Shown in pieces: positions 44,334-52,042 of a stretch of DNA of 64,000 nt. Made by a program: the position numbers and the translations under genes. Origin of the DNA: Methanomassiliicoccaceae archaeon. Lineage in GTDB: Archaea > Thermoplasmatota > Thermoplasmata > Methanomassiliicoccales > Methanomethylophilaceae. Location of the stretch: assembly GCA_034928305.1 (NCBI GenBank), contig JAYFOZ010000002.1, positions 496,001-560,000 on the forward strand, given 5' to 3'. Position 1 is the first letter of the stretch, and each line of letters opens with the position of its first letter. The notes below the pieces were generated by a model. That model ran no database searches and had not been told where the DNA came from. It saw only the letters and a list, made by a program, of their open reading frames with translations.

Positions 44334-45443
44334 TCACTTGATATTCACTATGACGTAGTCGGAAGAGCCGAACCCCATCTTATCCGCGTGTTCGAAGGTG
44401 CTCTGCCATCTCGTGGTCGGATGTATACAGGCAAACATGTCTTCCGGTATTTCACCGGCGCATTTTTCGTAAAGTTCGCTGCCTTCGATGGGCGTTTGTC
44501 GCATCGCGATATCTATGCAGGCTCTGTCCAAAGCGACAGGATCGAAGGATGCGAGCATCCCCACATCGGGTATGACCGGGACGTCGTTCTCGGCATGGCA
44601 GTCGCAGTTCGGAGATATATCCGTCATTACGGTCACGTGGAAGTTCGGTTTGCCCTTGATGGCGGCCATAGCGTACTCCACGATCTTGGCATTTAGCACG
44701 CCTGCATCCTGGTCGTTCTCGGCGGTTATGGCATCGTAGAGGCAGGAGCCGATGCATCTTCCGCATCCGACGCACTTTTCCTTATCGATGGCGGCCTTTC
44801 TCCGTGTTAAGGCGATCGCGGACTCCGCGCACTGCCTGGCGCACGTGCCGCACCCGACACACTTATCGCGGTCCACGGAGGGTTTTCCCGCCGAATGCAT
44901 CTCCATCTTACCGCGGCGGGACGCGCACCCCATCGCCAGGTTCTTCAGGGCCCCTCCGTATCCGGTGAGCTCGTGACATTTGAAATGCGTGACCGTTACG
45001 ATAACATCCGCGTCGTAAATCGCACGGCCTATCTTGGCCGTCTCCACATATTCGCCGTTTATCGGGACCTCGACGTCGTCGGTCCCCTTAAGGCCGTCGG
45101 CTATTATTATCTGACATCCTGCCGACATGCGGTTGAATCCGTTGTAGTTCGCGGTATCCAGGTGCTCGGGGGCGCTCTTTCTGCGACCCACGTACAGCGT
45201 GTTGCAGTCTGTCAGGAAAGGGATCCCTCCGAGCTCCCTGGTCTTCTCGGCCAGAACCCTGGGTATTCCCGGCCTGAGGTACGCAAGGTTCCCCAGTTCG
45301 CCGAAGTGCATCTTGATGGCCACGAACTTCCTGTCGCAGTCCATCCTGCCGATCCCTGCCTTCTCTACGAGCCTTAGCAGTTTGTCAGGTATGGAATCTC
45401 CCGTCCCGGTGCGCATGTCTGTGAAGAAAACCTCGGATGCCAT
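44334..45443 (-). CDS. DUF362 protein with two [4Fe-4S] ferredoxin clusters
   Basis: A 369-residue protein: a DUF362 core (VAIKMHFGELGNLAYLRPG, TDCNTLYVGRRKS, THFKCHELTGYGGALKNLAM) interrupted by a bacterial-type ferredoxin module with two full motifs, CVGCGTCARQCAES and CVGCGRCIGSCLYD. DUF362 proteins are thought to be redox proteins of anaerobes, but no single reaction is established. Cytoplasmic; the minus-strand promoter ATATAAATCGGG lies about 25 bases before the ATG, suggesting a leaderless mRNA. First gene of an operon with thpR. Confidence 0.85.
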   Translation of the reverse strand: MASEVFFTDMRTGTGDSIPDKLLRLVEKAGIGRMDCDRKFVAIKMHFGELGNLAYLRPGIPRVLAEKTRELGGIPFLTDCNTLYVGRRKSAPEHLDTANYNGFNRMSAGCQIIIADGLKGTDDVEVPINGEYVETAKIGRAIYDADVIVTVTHFKCHELTGYGGALKNLAMGCASRRGKMEMHSAGKPSVDRDKCVGCGTCARQCAESAIALTRRKAAIDKEKCVGCGRCIGSCLYDAITAENDQDAGVLNAKIVEYAMAAIKGKPNFHVTVMTDISPNCDCHAENDVPVIPDVGMLASFDPVALDRACIDIAMRQTPIEGSELYEKCAGEIPEDMFACIHPTTRWQSTFEHADKMGFGSSDYVIVNIK

Positions 45444-45708: not shown

Positions 45709-46134
45709 ATGTACACAATGAGTCCCTATTCCGGCAAACTCCTCAGCGACGAGGAGGCAATGAAAAAATACAATGGTGAGAAGCTTTGGGGTCTGCTCGT
45801 CTCGATCGACCTCGGAGAGTGCGACCATTCCAAGATCGCAAGCAAAGAGCACATCACACAGTATGCAATCGACCTCGCCAAGCACATCAACATGAAAAGA
45901 TACGGTGAACCTCAGGTAGTTTTCTTCGGAGACGAACCCAAGGTCCAGGGATATTCCCTCGTACAGCTCATAGAGACGTCTTTGATCTCCGGCCACTTCG
46001 CCGAGGACACTGACCGCGCATTCGTCGACATATTCTCATGCAGGGAGTTCGGTCCCGAAAATGCCGCCAAGTACACACAGGAATACTTTGGCGCCAAGAA
46101 GATGCAGTACTCGGTGTCCTTCAGGGACATCTAA
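45709..46134 (+). CDS. Divergent AdoMet-decarboxylase-like (SpeD-fold) pyruvoyl protein
   Basis: A 141-residue protein with the SpeD layout. WGLLVSIDLGECD resembles the first strand. The processing region usually written ESHISIHTWPE is here E89-T-S91-L-I-S-G-H96-F-A-E, keeping a Ser, the following His and the Glu but losing the His after Ser and gaining one residue. The conserved Cys is C111 in DIFSCREFGPENAA. SpeD self-cleaves to make a pyruvoyl group and decarboxylates AdoMet; homologues with altered sites can use other amino acids, so the substrate is uncertain. It has its own promoter and terminator. Confidence 0.6.
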   Translation: MYTMSPYSGKLLSDEEAMKKYNGEKLWGLLVSIDLGECDHSKIASKEHITQYAIDLAKHINMKRYGEPQVVFFGDEPKVQGYSLVQLIETSLISGHFAEDTDRAFVDIFSCREFGPENAAKYTQEYFGAKKMQYSVSFRDI

Positions 46135-46334: not shown

Positions 46335-47528
46335 GTGAGCTCGAACTGGAATTACAAAATGTGGGGGTCAGTGGGAGTCGTAATAGTGCTCCTCTCCGCA
46401 TCCGGCTTGATACTGTCGATGGAAGATTCCGAGAAAGAATCTGTTTCGATACTTGCCAGGGTGAACAACGACGGGTCTGGAATTTTTATCAGGGCCGATA
46501 CCGAGAATGTAGATGATATGACCGAGATGGTCGACGGGGTATTGACAGCGGTCAATCCCGAACTGTGGGAGGGACTGGTGTTCATGACGCCCGGCCCGTC
46601 TTCGATCCAACACATGATCCTCATGGACATAGTGCAGGAAGATCTGGGCCTGAAGTTCGTACAATACGGTACGGAGAGCGAAGGTGCCGTGTTCTGGACG
46701 CAGGTCGGTCCGGGCCTTATGCTCAGCACCATGAATGCAAAAAGCGATATCGACGGGGGAATCGCATGGGAGCCCCATTATTCGGTTGCGGTCAATGACG
46801 GCCTGTGCATCGAACTTATGACGACCAGCGACTATTGGCAAGGCCACCCTTGCTGTGTAATAGCGGCGAACAACTCGTTCCTTTCAGGCAACGTGAATGC
46901 AACAGAAAGATTCCTTGCGGCATACATAAAGTCCGTTCTATGGGTGACCGAGGCGACGTCCGAAATATCTGAAGATCACGATGCCCTTCTGGACATAACC
47001 AAGAGGATCGGCACCCCTGCGTCTTCTTCGGCCACTCCGATGTCCGATGAGGTAGCGGAGGCCGCGCTGGCGAACATCACCTATGCATATGAGATAGGAA
47101 ACCTCGCCCAACAGCTTGCTGATGTCGTGGATACGTACAAATCGCTCAATATCGTGCAGCAGAGCACGTTGAGCGATGCCGGATACGGATCATCGCTGGA
47201 ATTCACCGAACATTTGGTACAGGGGCAGTACATCGCCGATGCGCTCGATGATGAAGGGAATGTCAAATCGGCGGAAGAGCTGGGTTATTACGGCGGAGCC
47301 GTCACCCACATAGGGGTGGCGTACCTGGCGGCCGACATACACCAGATCGCCCTGCATGTGGGGATCGAACAGGGATTCTTTGCTGAATACGGGATCGAAA
47401 TAGAGCTGATAGGGCCTTTCGCGTCCGGTGGCGACGTCATGAACGCGCTGCTTTCCGGCCACGCGAGCATCGGATTCGTCGGTTCCCCGCCAGTAGTTTC
47501 TTCATCCATCAACGCGCTGAGGAGCTGA
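46335..47528 (+). CDS. ABC-importer binding protein, apparently circularly permuted NMT1/SsuA type
   Basis: A 397-residue exported protein with an N-terminal hydrophobic segment (SVGVVIVLLSASGLIL). It contains both parts of an NMT1/SsuA-like (nitrate, sulfonate or taurine type) binding protein, but in swapped order. The usual second part comes first (SILARVNNDGSGIFI, TPGPSSIQHMILMDI, GGIAWEPHYSVAV, WQGHPCCVIAANNSFL). The usual first part comes last (HIGVAYLAADIHQIALHVGI to IGFVGSPPVVSSSINALRS) and stops where the first part normally continues. GTG 46335 is used; ATG 46359 is an alternative. It lies in an operon with intact permease and ATPase genes. Ligand unknown. Confidence 0.75.
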   Translation: MSSNWNYKMWGSVGVVIVLLSASGLILSMEDSEKESVSILARVNNDGSGIFIRADTENVDDMTEMVDGVLTAVNPELWEGLVFMTPGPSSIQHMILMDIVQEDLGLKFVQYGTESEGAVFWTQVGPGLMLSTMNAKSDIDGGIAWEPHYSVAVNDGLCIELMTTSDYWQGHPCCVIAANNSFLSGNVNATERFLAAYIKSVLWVTEATSEISEDHDALLDITKRIGTPASSSATPMSDEVAEAALANITYAYEIGNLAQQLADVVDTYKSLNIVQQSTLSDAGYGSSLEFTEHLVQGQYIADALDDEGNVKSAEELGYYGGAVTHIGVAYLAADIHQIALHVGIEQGFFAEYGIEIELIGPFASGGDVMNALLSGHASIGFVGSPPVVSSSINALRS

Positions 47529-47532
47529 GAAC

Positions 47533-48351
47533 ATGGGAGTATCACTGAAAGACATCCGCTACGACGAGGACAAAAAGAGTCACCGCATGGTGCGGAAGGG
47601 CATAATCACCGTCGTATCGCTCGTCGTGTTCGTCCTGATATGGTGGAACCTGTCGCTGATACTGAACAATCCGGCGATCCCCACGCCCAAGATGACGTGG
47701 GACGCGCTGGTGTTCCTGTTCCAGAACGGCGATGCGGTCTCCGGAATGACCATGTGGGGCCATATGGGGATAAGCCTCGAGAGGTTCTTCGCCGGACTGT
47801 TGATTGCGCTCGCGCTCGCAGTGCCGTTCGGACTGCTTCTCGGATACTCGGATACTCTGAAGGAGTTCTCGTCCCCGACCTTGGAAGCTCTCAGGCCCAT
47901 CGCGCCGATCGCATGGGCGCCGATCTTCCTTTTCACCGTCGGTTACACCTGGGGGCCGGTCCTCGTGGTGTTCGTGGGGATATTCTTCCCGATACTGACG
48001 AACACGATATTCGGTGTTAAAAAGATAGACCCGAACTGGTTGGACGCCGCCAAAACGCTTGGAGCGTCCAAGGTCCAGACGTTCGTGAAGGTAATGCTTC
48101 CCGCAGCGGTGCCGTACATAATGAACGGCCTCCGCATAGGTATGGGAGTAGGATGGATGTGTATCGTCGCGTCCGAACTGTACGCATCGTTCGGCGGAGG
48201 CGTGGGATACTTCATCAGCATCCAGGCGCAGATGGGATACTGGCCTAACGTTTACGCTGGCATAGTGATCATCGCGATACTCGGTATACTGACAACCAGC
48301 CTTGCTGATTATGTGCATAAGGTCATCACCAGAAGGATGGGGATAGAATGA
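47533..48351 (+). CDS. ABC-importer permease (SsuC/TauC-like)
   Basis: A 272-residue inner-membrane permease of the nitrate/sulfonate/taurine class with about six helices. The EAA-type coupling loop that contacts the ATPase is DAAKTLGASKVQTFVKVMLPAAVPYI. The start lies five bases after the binding-protein stop, and its end overlaps the ATPase start by four bases (ATGA), so the three form a compact operon. The transported compound cannot be told from the sequence; the location beside methanol-utilisation genes is suggestive only. Confidence 0.88.
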   Translation: MGVSLKDIRYDEDKKSHRMVRKGIITVVSLVVFVLIWWNLSLILNNPAIPTPKMTWDALVFLFQNGDAVSGMTMWGHMGISLERFFAGLLIALALAVPFGLLLGYSDTLKEFSSPTLEALRPIAPIAWAPIFLFTVGYTWGPVLVVFVGIFFPILTNTIFGVKKIDPNWLDAAKTLGASKVQTFVKVMLPAAVPYIMNGLRIGMGVGWMCIVASELYASFGGGVGYFISIQAQMGYWPNVYAGIVIIAILGILTTSLADYVHKVITRRMGIE

Positions 48352-49139
48352 GCGAAAAAATTGTGATAAACCATCTGAGGAAGGTCTACAAGACAGACGA
48401 ACAGGAAACGGTGGCGCTGGAAGATTTCTCCCTCGAGATCGATAAAGGGGAGCTCGTCTCGATCGTCGGGCCGTCGGGGTGCGGAAAGACGACCCTGCTG
48501 AGGCTGGTAGCGGGCCTGATGGAGCCATCCTCGGGCGAGGTCGTCATCGGCGGCAGTAAGTGCACCGGGCCGGGCCCGGACAGGGGCATGGTGTTCCAGG
48601 AGTTCGCACTGTTCCCGTGGCGCTCGGTAAGGAAAAACGTAGAGTTCGGCCTGGAGATCGCCGGTGTTCCTGCGGAAGAGCGCAGGATGACCGCGGAACG
48701 TTACATCAAGGCGGTGGGCCTCGAAGGGTTCGAGGACCACAGAGTGCACGAGCTATCGGGAGGAATGAAGCAGCGCGTGGGCATCGCAAGGGCGCTTGTG
48801 ACCAAACCCGACGTGCTGCTGATGGACGAGCCGTTCGGCGCATTGGACGCCCAGACCCGCAACATCATGCAGGGGGAGCTTCTCAGGATAGTCGAAAAGA
48901 CGGACACGACGATATTATTCGTCACGCATTCGGTGGACGAGGCCGTTTACCTTTCCGACAGGATAGTGGTTCTGACCAAACGCCCGGCAAGCATCAAGGA
49001 TATTGTCGAAATAGATATTCCGAGGCCCAGGGACCGCGCCTCGCCCGAGTTCATCAAACTGCGCAAGCACATATTGAACCAACTGGAGGACGAGAACGTC
49101 AGACCCATCGTGCACACGGAGGCTCTGAACGGGCAATAA
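48348..49139 (+). CDS. ABC-importer ATPase (SsuB/TauB-like)
   Basis: A 263-residue ATP-binding subunit with Walker A GPSGCGKTTLLRLVAG (about residues 43-58), Q-loop FQEFALFPWRSV, signature LSGGMKQRVGIARAL, Walker B VLLMDEPFGALDA and switch His in FVTHSVDEAVYLSDR. This pattern is typical of the nitrate/sulfonate/taurine importers. It starts at ATG 48348 inside the permease stop and energises that permease. A bidirectional terminator follows. Confidence 0.93.
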   Translation: MSEKIVINHLRKVYKTDEQETVALEDFSLEIDKGELVSIVGPSGCGKTTLLRLVAGLMEPSSGEVVIGGSKCTGPGPDRGMVFQEFALFPWRSVRKNVEFGLEIAGVPAEERRMTAERYIKAVGLEGFEDHRVHELSGGMKQRVGIARALVTKPDVLLMDEPFGALDAQTRNIMQGELLRIVEKTDTTILFVTHSVDEAVYLSDRIVVLTKRPASIKDIVEIDIPRPRDRASPEFIKLRKHILNQLEDENVRPIVHTEALNGQ

Positions 49140-49181: not shown

Positions 49182-50795
49182 TCAAGACAGCCTGAGGGTG
49201 TCGAACTGCATGACTTTTTCAGGACATACGTACTGACATCTGTAGCACGCCGTTCCAAGGCAGTTCTTGGTCTTCACGGTGATCGTCTTGTCTTTGCTGA
49301 CGGTCAGTGCGTTCTCGGGGCATTCGCGCTCGCACTTCTTACACCCGGTGCAACCGGCCATCTTTCCCGTCAGGTCGGTACCTAGGTCGTGAAGGATGAA
49401 CAGGCCCCTTTCGCCGAGGTCGGCGATGTCACGCATGGATATGCGCGTGACCTTCGGGTGCCCGGTCGGCTTGGGCAGCGCCTGGAGACCGGCGGCAACG
49501 TTGTTATCGTTGTACTTGGTCATGCTCATGCCCTCTTCGCAGTAAGCCAGCTCCTGGACGTAGATCTGCTCGAATATGGAGTCCCCGGCGAACATTATGT
49601 GGTTGGCGCGGATGCTGTTCGCGGTCTCCTGCAGTTCATCCAGGATCTCGGGGTTCATCAGGATGTCCGTGGAAAGCGCCAGGGACGTGTTCCCGTACTG
49701 ATAGATATCGTCGCATGTCGGGGGTATCAGGCCTATGTCTCTTCCTTTCAAAGCATCTACGTATGTACCGGACGCGCCGCACATGTACATCGTCCTAAGG
49801 TCTTTGAAATCGATGCCCGCGTGCTCCACCAGTGTGAAATGGCCGGCCCTCATTGCACCGATGGCCTTCATGGCCTCCGATATGTCGTTGCTGGTGATGA
49901 AGACGCCATCCTGAAGATGCATCTTTCCGTCATCGGTGGTCAGTTTACCTTTCTTCCAGAGGTCGCTTTCTATCGCCACGGCGACGGCCGCTATGACGCC
50001 GGTACCGGTTATTCCGGCGGCCTTTCCGTGCATGGGGCCCTCCTCCGACATGATGCCGAGGCTGAAGTCGAACCGGTCTCCGTTCTGGGGGATCAGATTA
50101 TCGTCGAGGACCTTGCAGATCCATTGGAAATCATACTCCAGGTCGCTTATCGCTCCCGGGGCCGCGAGCATCCCGCACTCTATGGACTGCCCCTCCATTG
50201 CCGGACCGGCCGCGGCCGACCCGGTGTATATGTCATCTCCTACCTTCAGGGCCATCTCGGCGTTGGTGCCGTAGTCGGTGACAAGGCAGTTCTTCTTCTG
50301 TTCCAGGAAACCGCTCTTGTACATCATCGCCAGCGCATCGGCGCCTATCTCGTGCCTTATGGCGGGCGGCACATAGAGCTCGGTCTTGTCCGGGACGTCG
50401 AACCCGCAGGCTACAGCGCTGAACACGCCCGCATCCCTCTTCTGTTCCTTGATCCCCCTGACCCTTTTGGCGTTCTCGCCCGCAAAAGCGAGGTCTTCCA
50501 CGGGAATGTTCTGCGCCAGCGAAAGCTGGATGGGGTTCCCGCAGATGCTGAGCCTGACTACATCCTTCAGGTCTATCCCCAGGGTCCTGATGAGCTTGTT
50601 CACAGTGTCGATGACGATGTTATGCGCCACATCCTGTCCGACCCTGATGCTGAATGTCAGGTGGTCCATGATATTGGCGCCGGGCAAAGGATGGCATTCC
50701 GTTATCGATGTCGATAGGATCTTTTTTGCCTTCAGGTCGACCGCATGGGCCCTGAAGCCGCTTGTTCCCAAATCTAGAGATATTCCATATTCCAT
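49182..50795 (-). CDS. ramA: RamA-type corrinoid protein reductive activase
   Basis: A 537-residue protein of the RamA/RACE family, which uses ATP to reduce inactive Co(II) corrinoid proteins to Co(I). The N-terminal ASKHA-like ATPase fold starts GISLDLGTSGFRAHAVDLKA, with VTDYGTNAEMAL, GSAAAGPAMEG and MCGASGTYVDALKG further on. The C-terminal ferredoxin part has CTGCKKCERECPEN and CLGTACYRCQYVCPEK for two [4Fe-4S] clusters. The gene follows the CobW/His-rich pair on the same strand with a 27-base gap. Its target here is very likely MtaC, encoded by the operons to the right. Confidence 0.9.
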   Translation of the reverse strand: MEYGISLDLGTSGFRAHAVDLKAKKILSTSITECHPLPGANIMDHLTFSIRVGQDVAHNIVIDTVNKLIRTLGIDLKDVVRLSICGNPIQLSLAQNIPVEDLAFAGENAKRVRGIKEQKRDAGVFSAVACGFDVPDKTELYVPPAIRHEIGADALAMMYKSGFLEQKKNCLVTDYGTNAEMALKVGDDIYTGSAAAGPAMEGQSIECGMLAAPGAISDLEYDFQWICKVLDDNLIPQNGDRFDFSLGIMSEEGPMHGKAAGITGTGVIAAVAVAIESDLWKKGKLTTDDGKMHLQDGVFITSNDISEAMKAIGAMRAGHFTLVEHAGIDFKDLRTMYMCGASGTYVDALKGRDIGLIPPTCDDIYQYGNTSLALSTDILMNPEILDELQETANSIRANHIMFAGDSIFEQIYVQELAYCEEGMSMTKYNDNNVAAGLQALPKPTGHPKVTRISMRDIADLGERGLFILHDLGTDLTGKMAGCTGCKKCERECPENALTVSKDKTITVKTKNCLGTACYRCQYVCPEKVMQFDTLRLS

Positions 50796-50822: not shown

Positions 50823-51458
50823 TCAATAACGGTGACTTCGACGGCCGCAACACCCTCCGCGGTGTTCGCTGCCGTCGTCATCGTCATCATCGTGATGATG
50901 CTGACCTTCGTGGGCATTCTCGTGCTCGTGACCGTGGCATTTGCAGTCGTGCGCTCCATGTTCGTGATGATCCCCCTCTTCATGGTCATGCCCGTGCCCA
51001 TGTTCGTGCCCATGTTCGTGGTGGTGCCCGTGCCCGTGGCATTTGCAGTCGTGATGATCGAGCTCGATGTCCAGATTGGTGTCTTCCAGAACATGGTGCA
51101 TGGTATGGTCGAGCTCGCCCTCGTCGACATCGAGGACGGCGCACATGAGAGTGAACGACACCTTTTCGGAAGGCTCGATCGTGCCGTGTATCTCGACCCC
51201 GTTCTCCATATCGATGAGGTTCAGCGTTATTCCGGAGCCGTCCTCCAGATAGATTGCGCACTTGATGTGGCCCAGGAGCACGCCGGACTCGCCGCCGACC
51301 CATTTGCCGATCTCGTAGAGCGCGTCCACCATCCTTGCCTGGGCGTCTGCATTGAATCCTATGATGCGCCCTGTGAAACCGACGGCGGCCCCGCCGGCCT
51401 CCTCTATGGAGTTCTCCGGTTCCGCATCATCGTGTTCTGTGTGGTCGTGCTGTTTCAT
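50823..51458 (-). CDS. His-rich metal-binding protein of the ramA operon
   Basis: A 211-residue protein. Residues 20-140 form an ordinary folded domain (VGFTGRIIGFNADAQARMVD, LLGHIKCAIYLEDGSGITLN, VSFTLMCAVLDVDEGELDHT). From about residue 145 it becomes almost pure His/Asp/Glu/Gly with two HDCKCHGH units and a final GGCCGRRSHRY, an evident reservoir for Zn, Ni or Co. Its ATG overlaps the stop of the CobW GTPase and ramA follows, so the three are coexpressed. No family name recognised for the folded part. Handling of metal for MtaB (zinc) or the corrinoid (cobalt) is inferred from context. Confidence 0.7.
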   Translation of the reverse strand: MKQHDHTEHDDAEPENSIEEAGGAAVGFTGRIIGFNADAQARMVDALYEIGKWVGGESGVLLGHIKCAIYLEDGSGITLNLIDMENGVEIHGTIEPSEKVSFTLMCAVLDVDEGELDHTMHHVLEDTNLDIELDHHDCKCHGHGHHHEHGHEHGHGHDHEEGDHHEHGAHDCKCHGHEHENAHEGQHHHDDDDDDGSEHRGGCCGRRSHRY

Positions 51459-52042
51459 TTCATCATCTCGTATACTTTATCCAAGTTCTCGCCGGTCTTT
51501 ACAGATATAGGTAATAAGGGCTTGCTCGGGAATTCGGAAGCCATCCATTCTTTGATTTCTTTCATTTTCTCAGGAGTGGCAAGGTCGCTCTTGTTGATCA
51601 GTATGAAGTCGCTTCCGTGCATCTGCCTCCTGAAGAACTCTTCTTTCTTCTTTATCAGGTCGTCAAATCTCTGCACATCTACAATTCCGATTATGAATGT
51701 CCCGTCTGGGTCGATCATAGATATGCGAACCAGCTCCTTCACTTTGTGCGGTAAGGCGAGCCCGGTGGGTTCCACGATTATTATGTCGGGATCTATGTCT
51801 CTCTTAATATTCTGTAATGCATTTTGAAGCGTTCCTGAAAGCGAGCAGCATATGCACCCGTTGGGGAGTTCGATCGCATCGTATCCCTCGGCCTTGAGGG
51901 TCGCGCCGTCCACGCCGACCTCGCCGGATTCGTTCACAAGAAGCGCCACACGTAATTTTCTCTCGATGTACATTGACGCGAGCTTCATCAACAGGCTGGT
52001 TTTTCCGCTTCCGAGGAAACCGCCCAGAATATAAACATACAT
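51455..52042 (-). CDS. CobW/COG0523-family metallochaperone GTPase
   Basis: A 195-residue G3E GTPase. Walker A is GGFLGSGKTSLLM (residues 7-19), switch ESGEVGVDG, the metal-binding C-x-C-C motif of COG0523 is NGCICCSLSG (about 63-72), Walker B-like IIVEPTGLALP, and the base-specificity loop ILINKSDL. It is shorter than classical CobW because the C-terminal CobW_C domain is missing, like HypB/UreG-sized members. COG0523 proteins deliver Zn2+, Co2+ or other metals. First gene of the operon with the His-rich protein and ramA. Confidence 0.85.
   Translation of the reverse strand: MYVYILGGFLGSGKTSLLMKLASMYIERKLRVALLVNESGEVGVDGATLKAEGYDAIELPNGCICCSLSGTLQNALQNIKRDIDPDIIIVEPTGLALPHKVKELVRISMIDPDGTFIIGIVDVQRFDDLIKKKEEFFRRQMHGSDFILINKSDLATPEKMKEIKEWMASEFPSKPLLPISVKTGENLDKVYEMMK

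Follow-up and report, generated by a model that had tools for sequence, protein, structure and literature searches.

A conserved substrate-binding protein of an archaeal ABC importer, very likely a circular permutant, and the circular orders of its relatives

The window, a stretch of 64,000 nucleotides from a methane-producing Methanomassiliicoccaceae archaeon, carries a gene that very likely encodes a genuine, conserved and membrane-anchored substrate-binding protein (SBP) of an ABC importer, with the ordinary two-lobed fold of the type II class in a circularly permuted sequence. The degree of confidence given here covers the best explanation as a whole, namely a genuine permuted SBP, an origin by tandem duplication, and repeated moves of the chain ends. 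The order of the parts, the conservation, the purifying selection, the synteny and a confident fold model are shown directly. The fold itself is predicted by a model, and there are no experimental structure or binding data.

Order of parts and predicted fold of the window protein

The canonical linear order of this class is S1-S2-S3, with the three parts defined on the window residues given in Table 1. The window protein does not have this order, and is instead arranged as S2-S3-S1 (form P1). Positions 75-241 of the Pfam profile NMT1_2 (PF13379) are matched to residues 31-207 (E 2.2e-20; 74 bits against a cut-off of 24.7), and positions 6-54 of the profile NMT1 (PF09084) to residues 339-388 (E 8.2e-06; 26.3 bits against a cut-off of 20.5). 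The start of the family profile is therefore located at the end of the protein. The same swapped pair is found with phmmer against NrtA (2g29), where residues 339-384 of the query align with chain residues 47-92, and residues 115-209 with chain residues 181-275.

Table 1. Features of the window gene and its neighbors (parts of the SBP are given with their residue numbers)
Feature	Coordinates	Strand	Basis or remark
Permuted NMT1/SsuA-type SBP, form P1, order S2-S3-S1	46335..47528	+	397 aa, GTG start; Pfam, phmmer, AlphaFold
N-terminal membrane anchor helix, residues 7-34	46353..46436	+	AlphaFold/DSSP helix; hydrophobic stretch N-terminal in every circular form
S2, canonical second part, residues 37-110 (ILARVN..GSG to SIQHMILMDIV)	46443..46664	+	Segment HMM; DSSP
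Inserted hairpin within S2, residues 63-72			DSSP
S3, canonical third part, residues 111-302, with WEP and HPCC motifs	46665..47240	+	Segment HMM; conserved residues
Linker from old C-terminus to old N-terminus, residues 303-323	47241..47303	+	Least constrained part by pN/pS
S1, canonical first part, now C-terminal, residues 324-397, with DIHQ and GSPP motifs	47304..47525	+	Pfam; segment HMM; pN/pS
ABC importer permease (BPD_transp_1), TauC/SaoP-like	47533..48351	+	Intact
ABC importer ATPase	48348..49139	+	Intact; nearest NCBIfam SaoA, ntrCD and TauB-type models, all below cut-offs
AdoMet decarboxylase-like gene	45709..46134	+	Conserved upstream neighbor at P1, P3 and canonical L187 loci
RamA-type corrinoid reductive activase	49182..50795	-	Convergent, downstream; TIGR04270, E 2.5e-215; also at some P1 and P3 loci

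The AlphaFold model of the window protein, from an alignment of 30 sequences with the same order of parts, has a pLDDT of 90.2 and a pTM of 0.85 and begins with the anchor helix. The model of a canonical relative (L039, from genome G036) has values of 92.4 and 0.86, respectively. Their secondary structures were compared as strings of elements, from which the anchor was excluded. The 30 elements of the window protein differ from the 28 of L039 by only 2 edits once the last 7 window elements are moved to the front, compared to 8 edits without rotation and 4-14 for other rotations. Both of the remaining edits correspond to a single inserted hairpin in the window protein (strands 63-66 and 69-72). 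The cut points of the various forms fall between secondary structure elements.

The best matches of the window model in the Protein Data Bank, found with Foldseek, are 3un6, NrtA, CmpA and SsuA. The canonical model matches 3un6 with a TM score of 0.82 (target-normalised; E 6.7e-18), and the window model matches it with a score of 0.61 (E 2.7e-6). Foldseek aligns sequentially, and the lower score of the window model is what permutation would be expected to produce. This comparison rests on predicted models, without a structural alignment that allows for circular permutation.

The first-pass annotation, made from the sequence alone, had quoted motifs of the second part ahead of those of the first, and had proposed a circular permutation beside an intact permease and ATPase. 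The motifs are present in the order it gave, both partner genes are intact, and the permutation is supported by the swapped profile matches and the rotated fold model. The structure prediction that it had called for returned a confident model with a closed, two-lobed fold. The first-pass annotation understated the case, however, as the relatives described below show.

The size of the insert in the hairpin region of S2 varies widely among P1 proteins, and two of them (L185 from G058 and L186 from G059) have an enlarged insertion in the same region as the window hairpin.

Circular orders and gene neighborhoods among relatives

Of the 147 genomes of the order, 133 have the SBP family of the window, with the same permease and ATPase next to it. 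Assignment by segment HMMs on the ORFs of about 200 loci shows that the orthologous locus occurs in four circular orders (canonical, P1, P2 and P3) as well as in two tandem fusions (P1x2 and P2x2). P1 is the order of the family of the window (f1) and is common to all six genomes of the genus and to single-contig genomes such as G009 and G015. P2 (S3-S1-S2) is found in families f2-f6 of the order and in further families of the class, and also, by hit coordinates only, in one genome elsewhere in the phylum. In P3 the cut lies inside S3: the start of the protein immediately precedes the HxCC strand, and its end immediately follows the WEP helix; there are seven such genes, including one in the single-contig genome G057. 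P1x2 consists of two complete P1 domains fused together, and is found in four genomes (G094, G099, G104 and G097; loci L075-L078), the first of which is a single-contig assembly. P2x2 is found in one genome only (L042, G145; the locus L136 is the same contig, recorded as JAKPZB010000063.1). Every form checked begins with one hydrophobic anchor: the membrane anchor stays in place and the domain behind it rotates.

The first-pass annotation had asked whether relatives keep the same order. P1 is common to the whole family of the window, and the rest of the order uses another cut point (P2). Beyond what it had claimed, there is a third cut point (P3), with two separate origins, and the canonical order recurs at the same locus.

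The protein is under constraint within the genus. The pN/pS ratio is 0.17-0.20 for the whole protein, 0.07-0.09 for the moved part S1, the lowest of all parts, and 0.34-0.37 for the linker joining the old ends, the highest of all parts. The moved part is thus under strong purifying selection. No NMT1-type SBP other than that of the window was found in the genome.

Two conserved neighborhoods were observed. Neighborhood A has genes for an Elp3-like protein, an HTH protein, the SBP, permease and ATPase, an HTH/PrpR_N-like protein, thioredoxin reductase and thioredoxin, and holds P2, canonical (G036, G140 and G045), P2x2 and some P1 genes. Neighborhood B has a homologue of the window ORF at 44334-45443, the AdoMet decarboxylase, the SBP, permease and ATPase, and in some cases RamA, and contains P1 genes (that of the window among them), P3 (L087-L090) and the canonical gene L187. 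As each neighborhood contains several orders, the rearrangements most likely occurred in place. The same observation gives no support to an entry of permuted genes from foreign sources at scattered sites. A scan for promoters and terminators was uninformative.

Other features were seen at these loci. A regulator with HTH_3 and a weak PrpR_N-like C-terminal part is located downstream of the ATPase, on the opposite strand, in many genomes of the order (L131-L161); beside this ABC operon, it is a possible candidate for a ligand sensor. In L155 (G029) the operon is interrupted by a 405-aa exported-looking ORF without a Pfam match and a further ORF, both between the P2 SBP and the permease. In L043 (G131, 922 aa) and L044 (G132, 900 aa), a P2-type SBP domain is fused to long C-terminal domains of extracellular type, with fibronectin-III-like repeats and a C-terminal hydrophobic helix in the former and another repeat-rich sequence in the latter. 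The HPCC motif is degraded in both, and the flanking sequence examined shows neither a permease nor an ATPase. The P2 gene L066 (G038) is split by a frame change, and L191 (G005) is a damaged second P1 copy spread over two frames, with an intact P1 gene elsewhere in that genome. In the window, at 50823-52042 (- strand) and next to the RamA gene, a histidine-rich protein overlaps the start of a P-loop GTPase, which we take to be metallochaperone-like (CobW/HypB/UreG-like) by eye.

Number of moves and their probable route

In a tree built from 131 domains after re-ordering (309 columns; canonical actinobacterial homologues as the root), P1 arises once inside P2 and P3 twice inside P1, and the canonical gene L187 is nested in a P3 clade. 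The clade of P1, P3 and L187 has a support of 100/96 in a 90-row subset without the longest branches. AU tests, with groups named after architectures and not after the tree, reject a single clade of P3 (p 1.6e-5) as well as a single clade of all canonical copies (p 4.8e-8). The tests do not reject a single permuted origin with the canonical order retained in G036, G140, G045 and G210 (p 0.095); they assume the LG+G4 model. In the best trees the order changes 7-8 times. The floor relied on here is five moves: canonical to P2, P2 to P1, P1 to P3 twice, and the return of L187 to canonical. L187 comes from a MAG that is 61% complete, on a contig of 7 kb.

The moves are most likely explained by duplication and trimming. 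In this scheme, the SBP gene would be duplicated in tandem and in frame within its operon. A deletion in the first copy would then bring a new start point up to the N-terminal anchor, which is kept, and the second copy would be cut at the matching point. The process would be repeated at the locus. The change from canonical to P2 is placed in an ancestor belonging to Thermoplasmata or to its phylum, and that from P2 to P1 in the family of the window; P3 would have arisen from P1 on two occasions, and the canonical order would have returned once.

Several observations bear on this scheme. Within a tandem of any given order, the other orders can all be found. The anchors of canonical L187 (MDGKILAVLAVAIIAIAGIAAFVLLNNN) and of the P3 gene L089 (MDKKILAVLIVAIVAIAGAAAFVLLNNN) are nearly the same, and the domain starts behind them differ; like anchors before different starts are the residue expected of a deletion from anchor to new start in the first copy together with truncation of the second. 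In the P1x2 gene L075, both copies have the same S1 segment (65/65 identical), a sign of recent duplication or of recombination between the copies. The first copy of P2x2 (copy a) lacks Ser48, Pro86, Gln92, Trp145, Cys173, Cys174 and His336 (window numbering), which are kept in all other forms and in the bacterial outgroup. One copy is therefore decaying at the putative ligand site. The proposal of duplication and trimming in the first-pass annotation is thereby supported by extant tandem genes of both kinds (P1x2 and P2x2), but this origin remains an inference. None of the tandems observed is the P2x2 gene that would have preceded P1 in an ancestor of the family of the window. Those observed arose later and independently: the P1x2 genes are younger than P1, and the P2x2 gene is in a family of the order other than that of the sister of P1.

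Three other explanations were weighed. An assembly artefact, a truncated tandem or a pseudogene, the first two of which the first-pass annotation had named as possible refutations, can be put aside with hardly any reservation. Many of the relatives are indeed MAGs, and a damaged (L191) and a frameshifted (L066) copy do exist; however, the frame of the window gene is intact, its order is kept throughout the genus and in single-contig genomes, and the part that moved is the most constrained of the protein. We reject this explanation on the conservation in single-contig genomes and the purifying selection. An origin without any tandem intermediate, through gene fission and re-fusion in another order or through recombination between paralogues, with the tandems as unrelated later duplications, is unlikely. 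It draws on the missing ancestral tandem behind P1 and the late date of the P1x2 genes. Against it, apart from the broken copy L066, none of the loci retrieved has a split gene with S1 or S2 encoded separately; P1 and P2 both occur as tandem fusions; and the retained anchor before different domain starts fits an internal deletion.

The third alternative concerns the number of moves, and is more evenly balanced. The canonical genes of G036, G140, G045 and G210 could be reversions from P2, giving seven or eight moves rather than five. These archaeal genes fall among permuted ones in the best trees, and those of G036, G140 and G045 share their syntenic locus with P2 genes. On the other hand, retention of the canonical order is not rejected by the AU test, and the deep branches are weak or long; we lean slightly against reversion here. 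Duplication and trimming, with a floor of five moves, is the reading we prefer. In a bolder form, which we regard as likely, the ends of one syntenic gene have wandered at least five times, with at least one full return to canonical, by repeated tandem duplication in place and trimming behind a fixed anchor, and the extant tandems could in principle fold in either register.

Function and relation to known systems

By analogy with SBPs of the SsuA/TauA/NrtA type, the window protein is most likely an ordinary anchored SBP that would capture a small ligand and deliver it to the neighboring permease; no binding data support this. It is encoded with its cognate permease and ATPase, and is exported and anchored as judged from the sequence and the model. 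The residues kept in every order (DxHQ, GS, PG...QH, WEP and HxCC) are inferred to line the binding cleft, again without binding data.

The ligands of its neighbors in fold and sequence are sulfonates, taurine, nitrate or bicarbonate. The ligand of the window family is unidentified, and the invariant His/Cys set (DxHQ, QH and HxCC) suggests at most a possible soft-metal or thiol-type ligand, a guess to be used only as a lead. Among the neighboring genes (Elp3-like, HTH, thioredoxin and thioredoxin reductase; AdoMet decarboxylase and RamA), no clue to the substrate is consistent across both neighborhoods. Coenzyme M (CoM) was considered because SsuA/TauA-like importers carry sulfonates, and it is not excluded. 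CoM biosynthesis genes have been reported in three Methanomassiliicoccales genomes (PMC4153887), and by analogy a special need for CoM uptake would therefore not be expected here. Membership in SaoX (NCBIfam NF040735) is rejected, with 24.6 bits against a curated cut-off of 300. The permuted order lowers this score too, yet the canonical L039 reaches just 69.7 bits.

As in SsuA, TauA, NrtA and CmpA (2x26, 6ssy, 2g29 and 2i48), the window family has a type II fold, homologous sequence, and a permease and ATPase of the same type. These proteins have the canonical order, however, and the window family has the residues of a distinct subfamily at the putative ligand site (HxCC and DxHQ). A natural circular permutant is known in TpMglB-2 (Tp0684) of Treponema pallidum, a 'Type Ic / Cluster Bc' ligand-binding protein (PMC4990184). 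It is likewise a permuted, membrane-tethered SBP of an ABC importer, common to a set of relatives. In comparison, TpMglB-2 is a type I (cluster B) sugar binder with one permuted topology, for which no series of cut points or tandem intermediates was described, and the paper leaves open whether its moved part came from another gene. The window family is of the type II NMT1/SsuA class and has three cut points and tandems. In the open literature searched, no permuted type II SBP was found, the only permuted SBP being the type I TpMglB-2; subscription papers were outside this search, and an unseen report is possible.

Natural permutation of an SBP is thus already known, and what is new here is a permuted SBP of another class, with repeated moves and surviving intermediates. 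A route by duplication, with tandem fusion followed by trimming at both ends, has been reviewed (PMC3320104). Here, by comparison, a single syntenic gene has gone through several such rounds, and both intermediates and products are found together within one archaeal class.

The permutation explains the scores below cut-off that these SBPs have against named families, and the natural permutants are on offer for the design of biosensors. A natural circular permutation is usually regarded as a single ancient event whose steps have been erased. Here a single archaeal class has, at conserved chromosomal loci, the canonical form together with three permuted ones and fused tandems, and the order of the steps, the tolerance of a two-lobed SBP to moved ends, and the fate of the tandems are therefore directly testable.
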